Assembly: GCA_014874455.1 (NCBI GenBank)
Contig: JADBJL010000094.1
Location: 1-64,000 of the forward strand
DNA: 64,000 bases
Reading direction: 5' to 3'
From: Thermomicrobiaceae bacterium
GTDB taxonomy: Bacteria > Chloroflexota > Chloroflexia > Thermomicrobiales > Thermomicrobiaceae
Below are positions 9,797 to 46,822 of this stretch, one piece after another (the stretch's first letter is position 1; each line of letters begins with the position of its first letter). The notes below the pieces were generated by a model, which saw only the letters and a program-made list of their open reading frames with translations, was not told the DNA's origin and searched no databases. The position numbers were made by a program, and so were the translations under genes.

Positions 9797-10999
9797 CTAC
9801 TCGTCGCATCGGCCCCCGGGCGAACCGGGGAGCGGATCGTGCAGCCCGACGCCCGGCGTCTCTCCGGCGAAGCGGGCCACCACCTGTTGCCAGCTCCGCC
9901 GCTGAGCCGGCGTGAGCTCGCCGGTAAAGCGGTAGTCGGCACTGGCGATGAAGGCTTCCAGGTCGTCAGCGAGCCGCTCCAGATCCCCGAGTGCGGCCCG
10001 CAGCGCCGCGCTCGACCCAGTGGTGACGATGGCGCGGCGCAGGTGCCCCAGGCAGAGGGGAGCGACACCTGACTCCGGCCGTGCCGACGGCGTACGACTG
10101 CCGAGCCGGCCGTTCGGATGCAGGCTCTCCCAGCCTAGCGCCTCACCGACCCGATCCGGCGCGTCGAGCCAGGCGACCCAGGCGTGCAGCCGCGACTGCC
10201 GCCAGCAGCCGCCGTCGAAGAGGGAGCGGCGTGCCCGCGCGCAGGCGGGGCACGAGACCCGCTGCGGGGGAAGCTCGTGCGGCTTCCGCCCAACGAGCAG
10301 GGCGAGCCGCTCCTCGGCCGTGCCCTCGCGGAGCGCTCGTTCCGTCCGCGCAAGGACGCGTCGTTCGAGCGCCGCTCGCCGCTCGGCGGCGGTGCTCTCG
10401 AGGAGAGCGGCGGCATGCGGCCGGCAGAGCGCGGCCGGGCCTTCTCCCAGCAGATCCGGGTCACGCTCGCCGAGCCAGGCCAGGGCCCAGAGCAGCGTCT
10501 CTTCCGCCGCCCGGTTCCACTCGCAGGCCGGACAACGCGCCTCCGGGCGCAGCCACCGCTGGGCGGCCTCGACGCCCGCGACCGCGCGTGCCAGGAAGTC
10601 GCGCAGCAGCCGGTCGAGGACGATCGCCACGCCGTAGTGGCTGTGTACCAGGCGCCCGGCAGGGATCAACGCCCAGGTATGCTCGAAGCAGAAGCCGCGC
10701 GAGGCGAGCAACCGCCGGTGCGTCAGCGGGTCGGTGACCTGCTCCCAGAGCAGCGCCTCGAGCCCGCGCAGCTCCTTGCGGGCCAGCAGGCGACAGACCG
10801 GGCAGCCGGCCAGCTCGATCTCCTCTTCGATGGTGCGCAGGAGGTAGCGATCGGGAACCGGCTCCCGCGCGCCCAGGAGCCGGCGGACGCGGGCCAGCAG
10901 CTCAGGGCCTCGGGTGGGCGGACGGAGCTGGTTATCGAAGTCGAATGGCAGACCCAGTGACCCGAACACAAAAGCCTCCACGCACCGACCGGAGGTCAC
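9797..10999 (-). CDS. DUF6062-like cysteine-motif protein
   Basis: CPVC, CPACEW and CPACARAR motifs and 'RGFCFEHTWAL'; co-oriented with the MoxR cluster. Confidence 0.65.
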   Translation of the reverse strand: MTSGRCVEAFVFGSLGLPFDFDNQLRPPTRGPELLARVRRLLGAREPVPDRYLLRTIEEEIELAGCPVCRLLARKELRGLEALLWEQVTDPLTHRRLLASRGFCFEHTWALIPAGRLVHSHYGVAIVLDRLLRDFLARAVAGVEAAQRWLRPEARCPACEWNRAAEETLLWALAWLGERDPDLLGEGPAALCRPHAAALLESTAAERRAALERRVLARTERALREGTAEERLALLVGRKPHELPPQRVSCPACARARRSLFDGGCWRQSRLHAWVAWLDAPDRVGEALGWESLHPNGRLGSRTPSARPESGVAPLCLGHLRRAIVTTGSSAALRAALGDLERLADDLEAFIASADYRFTGELTPAQRRSWQQVVARFAGETPGVGLHDPLPGSPGGRCDE

Positions 11000-11253
11000 G
11001 CGTAGAGGCTATCAGCCACGATGGCGGTTCGGCGGCCGACTCGCCGCCAGGCGAGCCTCATCGCCTCGCTGCAGACGAGTATACCACAGCGACGCCTGCT
11101 CCCCGCGAAGGAGATCAAGCTCGGGCAGGGCTGGACGGCTTCGGCCTCCGCCAGCGCGATCGGATCGGCCGCACGGCGGGTAAGATGGTGCGGGCCGCGG
11201 CGACTGGCGCACGGGGCCAGCGCACCGGCCAGGCTCTGGGTAAGGAGGGCGAG

Positions 11254-30115: not shown

Positions 30116-30144
30116 TTGACAGCGCGGCGTGATCCTGTTAGGCT
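30116..30144 (+). promoter_or_regulatory. Promoter of ilv operon leader
   Basis: TTGACA - 17 nt - TAGGCT. Confidence 0.75.
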
Positions 30145-30183
30145 AGTGCCCAGCATACAGGAGCGCGGGCGGAGGATCGCTGC

Positions 30184-30342
30184 GTGAGGACAGCCGGCGG
30201 ACAGCACAGGACGAACAGGGTGTCGGCAGTGTGCCGGCCTCTCGTGCTGCCGCGTGACCGCGCTCTCACTGTACGCGCGCTCATCCTCCTTATCGTAGGT
30301 CTCCTTATTATCCTTCAGCACGCCGGCGGTCTGGGAGGCTGA
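30184..30342 (+). CDS. Putative ilv leader peptide (attenuator)
   Basis: GTG start with GGAGG 8 nt upstream; 52 aa ending ...RALTVRALILLIVGLLIILQHAGGLGG*. Confidence 0.8.
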   Translation: MRTAGGQHRTNRVSAVCRPLVLPRDRALTVRALILLIVGLLIILQHAGGLGG

Positions 30343-30412
30343 GCGAGACCGAGTAGCACGATACAGATAGCGAGACTCGTGAGCCTCCCGAGACCGGGAG
30401 GCTCACTCGTTG
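30333..30412 (+). promoter_or_regulatory. Antiterminator arm and attenuator terminator of the ilv operon
   Basis: GTGAGCCTCCCG-agac-CGGGAGGCTCAC hairpin (30379-30406); upstream GGGAGGCT (30333-30340) duplicates its 3' arm and overlaps the leader stop codon. Confidence 0.8.
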
Positions 30413-30478
30413 TAACGATCGAGCCGTGAGCTGTCGCACCGGGATGCCCGGTGAGGTTGGGGCAAGGAGGGTAGTGCA

Positions 30479-32218
30479 ATGGCGGTCGAGACGCAAACAC
30501 GACGCGCGACCACGGAGCAGCACCAGACCGAGCCGCAATTGGGTGCTCGGCTGATCTGCCAGGCGCTCGTGCGCGAAGGCGTGGACCTGATCTTCGGGTA
30601 TCCCGGCGGGGCCGTCATCCCGCTCTACGACGTGCTCCCGGAATTCCCGATCCACCACGTGCTCGTCCGCCACGAGCAGGGCGCGGCGCACGCGGCCGAC
30701 GGCTACGCGCGCGCCACCGGGAAAGTGGGCGTCTGCCTGGCGACCTCCGGCCCCGGAGCCACGAACCTGGTCACCGGGATCGCGACGGCGATGATGGACT
30801 CGGTGCCGCTGGTGGCCATCACCGGCCAGGTGCCGCAGCACGTCATCGGGATGGACGCCTTCCAGGAGACCGACATCACCGGAATCACGATCCCGATCAC
30901 CAAGTACAACATGGTGATCCGCAGCGTGGACGAGATCGGCCCGGCCATCCAGAAGGCCTTCTACCTGGCGAGGTCGGGCCGGCCTGGGCCGGTGCTGATC
31001 GACATCCCCAAGGACGTCCAGCTCGCCAAGGGCTACCTCGCCCCGCCCCAACCCGTCAACCTGCCCGGTTATCGCCCGACGATCGTCCCGCACCGGCGGC
31101 AGATCCGCCGCGCCGCCGAGCTGATCCGGCAAGCCAAGCGGCCGCTCGTCCTGGCCGGCCACGGCATCCTGATCTCCGGTGCCACTGAGGAGCTCGTCAA
31201 GTTCGCCGAGCGGGCACAGATTCCCGTGGGGCTGACGCTGCTCGGGATCAGCGGCTTCCCGGCATCGCATCCGCTCTGCCTCGGGCTGGTGGGGATGCAC
31301 GGCTTTGCCCACGCTAACCGCGCCATCCATGAGGCCGACGTGATCGTCGGCATCGGCATGCGGTTCGATGACCGGGTCACCGGGCGCCCCAGTGAATTCG
31401 CTCCCAACGCCAGGATCGTCCACATCGACATCGACCCGGCTGAGATCGGCAAGGTACTGAAGACCGAGGTGCCGGTGGTCGGCGACGCGCGCGAAGCGCT
31501 GAAGCTGCTGCTGGAAGAGATGGAGCCGCTGCGCCACGACGAGTGGATCGAGACGATCCGGAGCTGGTACCGGCCGATCCGCACTGCGCCATCCGGCCCC
31601 AACGGCGTGCTCCAGCCGCAGTACGTGGTCGACCGGCTGCACAAACTGACCGAGGGCAAGGCGATCGTCACGACCGATGTCGGACAACATCAGATGTGGG
31701 CCGCTCAGCTCTACAAGTGCGATATCCCCAACCAGTGGATCAGCTCCGGCGGGCTGGGCACCATGGGCTTCGGCGTGCCGGCCGCGATGGGCGCCTCGCT
31801 CGGCCGACCGGAGGCGGAGGTCTGGGCGGTGGTCGGGGACGGCGGAGTGCAGATGACGCTGCACGAGTTCGCGACCATCGTCGACGAGCAGTGCAACGTG
31901 AAGGTCGCGATCATCAACAATGGCTACCTCGGCATGGTGCGGCAGTGGCAACAGCTCTTCCACAACCGGAACTACTCCGAGACGCCGATCAGTAGCCCCG
32001 ACTACGTGCTGCTGGGCCAGGCCTACCGGATGCCGGCACGGCGCGTCACCCGGCCGGCCGAGGTGGACGAGGCGATCCAGTGGGCGCGCTCGTTCCGGGG
32101 CCCGGCACTGATCGAATTCGTGGTCAACCAGGAAGAGAACGTCTACCCGATGATCCCGTCGGGCGGCTCCTTCCGGGAGATGATCGACGTGCACGACGCG
32201 CAGGATGGGGAGTGGTAG
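30479..32218 (+). CDS. ilvB: Acetolactate synthase large subunit
   Basis: 'FGYPGGAVIPLYD', 'GVCLATSGPGATNLVTGIA', 'VVGDGGVQMTLHEFAT...NNGYLGMVRQWQ'. Confidence 0.97.
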   Translation: MAVETQTRRATTEQHQTEPQLGARLICQALVREGVDLIFGYPGGAVIPLYDVLPEFPIHHVLVRHEQGAAHAADGYARATGKVGVCLATSGPGATNLVTGIATAMMDSVPLVAITGQVPQHVIGMDAFQETDITGITIPITKYNMVIRSVDEIGPAIQKAFYLARSGRPGPVLIDIPKDVQLAKGYLAPPQPVNLPGYRPTIVPHRRQIRRAAELIRQAKRPLVLAGHGILISGATEELVKFAERAQIPVGLTLLGISGFPASHPLCLGLVGMHGFAHANRAIHEADVIVGIGMRFDDRVTGRPSEFAPNARIVHIDIDPAEIGKVLKTEVPVVGDAREALKLLLEEMEPLRHDEWIETIRSWYRPIRTAPSGPNGVLQPQYVVDRLHKLTEGKAIVTTDVGQHQMWAAQLYKCDIPNQWISSGGLGTMGFGVPAAMGASLGRPEAEVWAVVGDGGVQMTLHEFATIVDEQCNVKVAIINNGYLGMVRQWQQLFHNRNYSETPISSPDYVLLGQAYRMPARRVTRPAEVDEAIQWARSFRGPALIEFVVNQEENVYPMIPSGGSFREMIDVHDAQDGEW

Positions 32219-32219
32219 G

Positions 32220-32738
32220 GTGCGCAGCCACACACTGGTCGTGCTGGTGGAGGACAAGCCGGGAGTGATGAACCGGATCGTGAGCCTCTTCCGCCAGCGG
32301 GGCTTCAACATCGACAGCATCGCGGTCGGGCATACCGAGACGCCCGGCCTCTCGCGGATCACGCTGGTGGCCAAGGGAGACGACCGCAAGATCGAGCAAC
32401 TGGTCAAGCAGCTCTACAAGGTGCTCGAGGTCATCAAGATCACCGATGTCACCGACGAGAACCTGATCCAACGGGAACTCGCGCTCATCAAGGTGAACGC
32501 GACAGAGCGGACACGCTCCGATATCATGCGGCTCGTGTCGGACGTCTACCGGGCGCGCATCGTCGACGCGGCGCCGGACGCGATGGTGATCGAGGTCACT
32601 GGCCCGCCGGAGAAGATCGAGTCGTTGATCACGCTGATCCGCCCGTATGGGATCAAGGAGCTGGCCCGCACCGGCGTGGTCGCGATGGCGAGGGGCAGCC
32701 GGGCTGTTGCCATCGGCCAGCCCGAAGTTGTAGCCTAG
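32220..32738 (+). CDS. ilvN: Acetolactate synthase small subunit
   Basis: ACT domain '[37 protein letters not shown]'. Confidence 0.96.
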
Positions 32739-32809
32739 CTTGGATGTTGCCGGGAAAGGCTTCACAGCCAGCGAGTGGCGTTTGGGTACAGGAGGGGGTC
32801 AAGAAGACC

Positions 32810-33817
32810 ATGGCGACGATCTACTACGATCAGGACGCGGATCTCTCGCATCTGGCGGGTAAGACGGTCGCGATTCTCGGCTACGGCAGCCAGGGGCACG
32901 CGCATGCCCAGAACTTGCGCGATAGCGGCGTCAGCGTCGTCGTCGGCTTGCCGGAGACGAGCCGGAGCCGGGAACGAGCCGCGGCCGACGGCCTCGAGGT
33001 GCTCTCAGTCCGCGAGGCGGCCCAGCGTGGCGACGTGATCTCGATGTTGATGCCCGACCACGTGCAGAAGGGCGTCTACGAGGAGCACGTAGCACCGGAG
33101 CTGAAGCCCGGCAAGGTACTGATGTTCGCTCACGGTTTCAACATCCACTACGGGCGTATCGTCCCGCCAGCCGAGATCGATGTGACGATGATCGCACCGA
33201 AGAGCCCTGGCCACGTCCTGCGCGATCTCTACCAGCAGGGCATCGGTGTCCCGGCGCTGCTCGCCGTGCACCAGGACGCGAGCGGCCAGGCCAAGCAGAT
33301 CGCGCTGGCTTATGCGAAGGGGCTGGGCTGCACCAAAGCTGGCGTGCTGGAGACAACGTTCAAAGAGGAGACCGAGACTGACCTCTTCGGCGAGCAGGCA
33401 GTGCTCTGCGGCGGTGTCAGCCACCTGATCCAGGCCGGCTTCGAGACGCTGGTCGAGGCCGGCTACCAGCCGGAGCTGGCCTACTTCGAGGTGCTCAACG
33501 AGCTAAAGCTGATCGTCGACCTGATCTACGAGGGCGGGCTGAAGTTCATGCGCTACTCGGTCAGCGACACGGCCGAGTACGGCGACTACGTCAGCGGGCC
33601 GAAGATCATCGACGACCGGGTACGCGAGACGATGCACCAGATTCTCCAGGACATCCAGACCGGCCGCTTCGCCCAGCAGTGGATGGCTGAGAACGATGCC
33701 GGTCGCCCGAACTTCTACCGGATGCGCCAGGAGGCCCAGCAGCACCCGATCGAGGAGGTCGGCGAGCGGCTGCGGGCCATGATGCCGTGGCTGAAGGCGA
33801 GGCAGATCCCGTCCTAG
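32810..33817 (+). CDS. ilvC: Ketol-acid reductoisomerase
   Basis: '[22 protein letters not shown]', '[17 protein letters not shown]'. Confidence 0.97.
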
Positions 33818-46760: not shown

Positions 46761-46822
46761 TCTCTCACAGCGTGATACGCCTCCCACCGGCGTCGGGGAG
46801 GCGAGCCCGGCACAGTCACGGC

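Follow-up and report, generated by a model that had tools for sequence, protein, structure and literature searches.

A probable ribosome-mediated attenuator in the ilvBNC leader of a Thermomicrobiaceae bacterium, with candidate sister leaders at cimA, leuA and leuS

The 5' leader of the ilvBNC operon in this Thermomicrobiaceae bacterium is very probably a ribosome-mediated transcription attenuator, a reading based on its sequence and on comparison with relatives. The leader lies in a stretch of 64,000 nucleotides that was analysed as a whole (hereafter the window). Its parts (Table 1), their conservation, the coordinated changes in its competing arms, its biased choice of codons and the pathway-matched sister leaders all point in this direction, and it behaved as such an attenuator in every computational test available, the U tract excepted. 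In the proposed mechanism, RNA polymerase would start near position 30151 and a ribosome would translate the 52-codon leader. When the supply of charged tRNA for Leu, Ile or Val runs low, this ribosome would stall in codons 33-44, leaving arm A (GGGAGGCT) free to pair with arm B (AGCCTCCC) before arm C has been made, so that the terminator would come too late and ilvBNC would be transcribed. When Leu, Ile and Val are all plentiful, the ribosome would reach the TGA codon and cover arm A, and the pairing of arms B and C would then stop transcription upstream of ilvB. Ribosome stalling, termination and the response to starvation are the steps that we infer.

Table 1. Features of the ilvBNC leader and operon in window coordinates, followed by the candidate sister leaders
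Feature	Position	Strand	Remarks
Candidate promoter TTGACA-N17-TAGGCT	30116..30144	+	TTGACA 30116-30121, TAGGCT 30139-30144, 17-nt spacer
Shine-Dalgarno sequence GGAGG of leader ORF	30171..30175	+	8 nt 5' of GTG 30184
Leader peptide ORF, 52 aa	30184..30342	+	GTG start; TGA stop 30340-30342
Putative control codons LILLIVGLLIIL	30280..30315	+	Codons 33-44 of leader ORF
Region 1	30277..30292	+	Able to pair with GGGAGGCTGAGCG, which would cover the antiterminator arm (moderate support)
Predicted antiterminator arm A (GGGAGGCT)	30333..30340	+	Overlaps leader stop codon TGA
Predicted terminator 5' arm B (GTGAGCCTCCCG)	30379..30390	+	Common to both structures
Predicted terminator 3' arm C (CGGGAGGCTCAC)	30395..30406	+	Followed by weak U tract TCGTTGT
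ilvB, acetolactate synthase large subunit	30479..32218	+	TIGR00118, 772 bits, above cut-off
ilvN, acetolactate synthase small subunit	32205..32738	+	TIGR00119 and NF008864, above cut-off
ilvC, ketol-acid reductoisomerase	32744..33817	+	TIGR00465, above cut-off
cimA leader, Ile-only, reads TAIIIGIIRPRV	G000:C36:4181 (L125, L223)		GCCTCCC/GGGAGGC hairpin; cimA TIGR00977 above cut-off
leuA leader, Leu-rich, ...LLRLSLSRPRGG, with hairpin	G000:C89 (L201); L193-L205		T-box 5' of leader
leuS leader, ...SLSRPRGG, few Leu codons, same hairpin	G000:C95 (L144); L241, L254	-	T-box 5' of leader

A sequence-only reading of this DNA had proposed a Shine-Dalgarno sequence, a GTG-initiated ORF, a run of Leu/Ile/Val codons, competing arms and a terminator hairpin, and all of these are present base for base in a leader of about 330 nt. 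The promoter that it claimed fared less evenly. Both hexamers and the 17-nt spacing are present, and all 18 family leaders have TTGACA-N17-TAnnnT at a comparable position despite differing spacers, but TAGGCT matches TATAAT at only three of six positions, and for this reason a consensus promoter scan called none at the ilvB leader. The short ORF lies between promoter and operon, and its translation is predicted from the conservation of the ORF, its Shine-Dalgarno sequence and its start codon within the genus: GGAGG is kept in both same-genus relatives, and the sole indel inside the ORF among the three same-genus genomes is 3 nt long and in frame. Judged by ilvB, the nearest named relatives are an uncultured Thermomicrobium (86% identity) and Sphaerobacter (79%). 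The start codon of ilvC may lie further in, as the TIGR00465 profile match starts at residue 23-37. Elsewhere in the window, a fluoride riboswitch (RF01734) is found on the minus strand at 10996-11074, with 38 bits, above the gathering score.

To follow the leader through related lineages, ilvB was located in 61 genomes of the order, in a class sample and in a phylum sample, and such upstream DNA as was available was read. Of the 72 upstream regions from the class, 60 passed an automated filter for a Leu/Ile/Val leader ORF with a terminator-like hairpin after it; among the 12 that the filter missed, L011, G037 and G059 show leaders by eye. For the window's family, a content of at least 7 of 10 Leu, Ile or Val was reached by 17 of 18 upstream regions in the sense orientation and by 1 of 18 in the antisense orientation. 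The class members examined also include families f12 and f6 and genomes G091 and G066, where the ilvB leader was absent or not found. Other Chloroflexota classes have it upstream of ilvB only sporadically, with 8 of 40 regions positive in sense and 1 of 40 in antisense, and the same holds for distant phyla (10 of 75 in sense, 4 of 75 in antisense). The predicted combination of a short Leu/Ile/Val ORF, an antiterminator arm at its stop codon and a terminator hairpin is present in nearly all of the family and in most of the order and class. An alignment of this kind had been suggested as a check on the attenuator, and relatives retain the hydrophobic codon run, the competing arms and the promoter, which, together with the pathway-matched candidate leaders at cimA and leuA and a related one at leuS, supports that interpretation. 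In the ilvB leaders of family f5 (for example L028 and L029), a conserved LPxGS motif in the peptide coincides with a local hairpin, CTCCC..GGGAG, which lies after the control codons and before arm A.

Across the six frames of the 64 kb, LILLIVGLLIIL is the only 12-codon window with 11 Leu, Ile or Val codons, and both windows with 10 overlap the same run. The hairpin at 30379-30406 consists of 12 perfect pairs closed by a loop of 4 nt, and it is one of just three perfect stems of at least 12 pairs in the window. The six-frame count, an antisense control and a test with permuted arms together rule out coincidence. In most relatives an arm A near the leader stop codon is complementary to arm B and similar to arm C, and the best arm A starts anywhere between about 36 nt 5' and 10 nt 3' of the stop codon, mostly within 27 nt. 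The three arms change together, reading CGGAGG/CCTCCG/CGGAGG in genus g3 (f1/g3) and TGCGGAAGG/CCTTCCGCA/TGCGGAAGG in G118. Across 33 distinct B arms, the scores of each arm A with its own arm B summed to 613; permuted B arms gave 544 +/- 12, and 0 of 2000 permutations reached 613. In some genomes of f5, f7, f11 and f13, arm A is weak and no better than shuffles. The conserved Gly-Gly at the peptide ends reflects the coding of arm A (GGAGGC), and the leader stop codon is placed such that a ribosome there would cover this arm.

Both the co-changing arms and folding with and without arm C describe mutually exclusive antiterminator and terminator structures that share one arm. The predicted probability of A:B pairing is 0.99 before arm C is made and 0 with a ribosome at the stop codon. 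With arm C present, B:C is the favoured pairing at equilibrium for all ribosome positions tested, and antitermination would therefore have to be kinetic. A stem in which region 1, where the control codons begin, pairs with arm A is part of the full-leader MFE structure, and corresponding duplexes are found in family relatives. As this stem has no population at equilibrium once arm B exists, we keep the 1:2 pairing as a possible third pairing of the leader, with moderate support.

A hairpin pattern search of the window's genome returned six GCCTCCC..GGGAGGC sites, including those of the leaders at ilvB, cimA (citramalate synthase), leuA (2-isopropylmalate synthase) and leuS (leucyl-tRNA synthetase). 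The sites at C46:8823 and at window position 46779 have no leader, and an attenuator at every such hairpin was accordingly rejected. The Ile-only leader and hairpin at cimA are conserved in the family (relatives L224-L236). In the 12 codons before a CGGCCCC hairpin, 11 cimA leaders together have 51 Ile, 8 Leu and 5 Val, while 12 leuA leaders have 60 Leu, 4 Ile and 2 Val. The putative control codons match the amino acids produced (Leu/Ile/Val at ilvB, Ile at cimA, Leu at leuA), and their identity follows the pathway branch of the downstream gene, a pattern that coincidence or a membrane-peptide function would not yield. The Ile-only and Leu-only leaders, which share genomes and hairpin type with the ilvB leader, serve as a natural control for it. 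The CGGCCCC-loop-GGGGC hairpin comes after the last control codons of the cimA, leuA and leuS leaders (L223, L201, L241), where the peptide has a conserved “RP”, and its role may be that of a pause or protector element opened by a stalled ribosome. Extension of this hairpin pattern to further operons was rejected, as the additional match in the same genome (C18:5483) is without an amino-acid run. Family f5 has leuA at a short distance 3' of ilvB, a gene order consistent with a single ilvBNC-leuA operon.

The choice among synonymous codons within the leaders is also unusual. GTA makes up 86% of the Val codons in family leaders but 2% of those in the ilvB genes of the same genomes, ATT 62% of the Ile codons compared with 15%, and CTT 37% of the Leu codons compared with 7%, while CTG falls from 45% of the Leu codons in ilvB genes to 8% in the leaders. 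Fisher p-values for these differences range from 1e-17 to 1e-65, with the relatedness of the genomes ignored. The predicted control codons are thus strongly biased towards the rare synonyms GTA, CTT and ATT. CUU and GUA have been named as control codons in Corynebacterium glutamicum (PMC11857589) and GUA as a regulatory codon in Mycobacterium tuberculosis (PMC13236596), and codon bias of this kind is addressed by selective-charging theory (PMC1183508).

At leuA and leuS, the leader is preceded by a second candidate sensor. In seven relatives at leuA and in one at leuS, the Rfam T-box model (RF00230) scored above its gathering threshold upstream of the gene; in the window's own genome, the T-boxes of the two genes reached 77.5 and 72.1 bits (E 2e-15 and 6e-14), less than the gathering score. 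In genera g1, g4, g5 and g6, a T-box lies 5' of the Leu leader wherever a Leu leader occurs. T-boxes precede branched-chain amino-acid genes, including leuA and leuS in the window's family and ilvB in four regions of other Chloroflexota classes (L281, L282, L294, L300), but not the ilvB leader described here, and they sense uncharged tRNA directly and without translation, unlike a leader peptide. We consider it somewhat more probable than otherwise that the Chloroflexia possess a regulon of branch-specific attenuators built on one hairpin type (Leu/Ile/Val at ilvBNC, Ile at cimA, Leu at leuA and leuS), in which the leuA and leuS leaders stand in tandem behind a T-box, so that charging of tRNA-Leu would be tested twice, by the T-box and then by translation of Leu codons, and in which leader peptide and T-box interchange at ilvB between classes. 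The succession of T-box and Leu leader at leuA and leuS, both outside the window, is the newest part of these results, and no description of such a tandem was found in the open-access literature searched.

The 12-bp hairpin that the sequence-only reading took for a terminator is confirmed as a stem, with a folding z of -7.4 against shuffles, but its U tract is poor: the ilvB hairpin here has the tail TCGTTGTAAC, and in the window's genus it is followed by TCGTTGT, which is not a proper U tract. Weak U tracts may be usual in the window's genome, because canonical terminators are no commoner in the window than in shuffles (13 in the window, about 13.6 in shuffles; 60 kb). Termination at the ilvB hairpin is nonetheless the weakest link for this genome, and it leaves some room, which we judge to be small, for a Rho-dependent or translation-coupled variant in which the leader senses amino acids and the hairpin itself is no terminator. 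The position of the ribosome would then expose or hide RNA for Rho, or alter the translation of ilvB. Such a variant would accommodate the weak U tracts, which recur at the ilvB, cimA and leuA hairpins of the window's genus and of Thermomicrobium-like relatives, and the resemblance of arm B (CCTCCC) to an anti-Shine-Dalgarno sequence. However, the same hairpin is followed by a true U tract of T5-T7 at ilvB in sister families, for example TTTTTT (GGGAGGCTTTTTT), and by TTTTTTT at cimA in genus g3. The hairpin also ends tens of nucleotides 5' of ilvB in the family, and arm B is not free to cover the Shine-Dalgarno sequence of ilvB, since it is always partnered by arm A or arm C.

Two further explanations dispense with a sensing leader peptide altogether. 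The occurrence of T-boxes before ilvB in other Chloroflexota classes and before leuA in the window's family raises the idea that the ilvB leader is a tRNA-sensing T-box or a metabolite riboswitch with an incidental ORF. We regard this as highly unlikely: a T-box or other Rfam cis-regulatory element was rejected at this site because no Rfam family matched the leader at gathering score, the best at E up to 10 lying far below the cut-off, and such an element would leave both the Leu/Ile/Val run and the codon bias unexplained. The leader peptide is very hydrophobic, as would suit a functional membrane micropeptide, with the hairpin as an ordinary terminator or mRNA-stability element. Yet counterparts of the ORF in relatives are poorly conserved in their N-terminal part, the amino acids vary with the downstream gene (Ile at cimA, Leu at leuA), and the residues conserved beyond the run (GG, RP and LPxGS) coincide with RNA stems, so that we give this possibility hardly any weight next to ribosome-mediated attenuation.

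Translation-coupled attenuation of amino-acid operons is known from Proteobacteria, Actinobacteria and some Firmicutes, and in the enterobacterial ilv, leu and trp attenuators the control codons fit the pathway and 2:3 and 3:4 structures compete. The ilvBNC leader resembles these in its pathway-matched candidate control codons and competing structures, whereas the firm 1:2 stem that is standard in enterobacteria is here a moderately supported possibility. The ilvB1NC attenuator of M. tuberculosis precedes the same operon and has an upstream ORF rich in branched-chain amino-acid codons and two exclusive structures; a ribosome at its UGA codon masks the antiterminator, and stalling at LVVI codons frees it (PMC13236596). 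The earlier view that the two-state layout of the present leader is simpler than that of enterobacteria does not set it apart, because the mycobacterial ilvB1 model has the same layout, and it is therefore not simpler than known cases. The mycobacterial leader is 166 nt long and has a U tract, whereas the present one measures about 330 nt, encodes a peptide of 52 aa with a run of 12 control codons and has a weak U tract; the present leader also belongs to a different phylum and has sister leaders on cimA, leuA and leuS. The Corynebacterium ilvBNC attenuator, or ilvB-II motif, likewise combines a branched-chain amino-acid leader peptide with a terminator and an antiterminator, which in C. glutamicum are supported by mutation, and its conserved control codons CUU and GUA are synonyms favoured here too (PMC11857589, PMC10272879). 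Unlike the present leader, it has a peptide of 15-17 aa, a leaderless start, a three-hairpin model and one site per genome.

Descriptions of ilvB leader peptides exist for Actinobacteria (PMC1262725) and Corynebacterium (PMC10272879), and the ilvB-OMG motif, described in “various bacterial phyla”, may include relatives of the leader reported here. However convincing, a layout does not prove function: in Streptomyces coelicolor a mutation of candidate control codons at ilvB had no effect, a result that we know through its citation in another study (PMC1262725). No report of leader-peptide attenuation in Chloroflexota (Chloroflexi) was found in the open-access literature searched. The mechanism is already known from mycobacteria and Corynebacterium, and as far as could be checked the phylum is new for this attenuator.

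Attenuation of amino-acid operons would thereby be extended to a deep-branching, partly thermophilic phylum, and within one genome each gene's predicted control codons correspond to its branch of the pathway. With a T-box and a leader peptide in tandem, leuA and leuS would have an unusual double sensor for a single amino acid. As CTT, ATT and GTA recur in these leaders, and CUU and GUA also in Corynebacterium and Mycobacterium, selective-charging theory may become testable across phyla.
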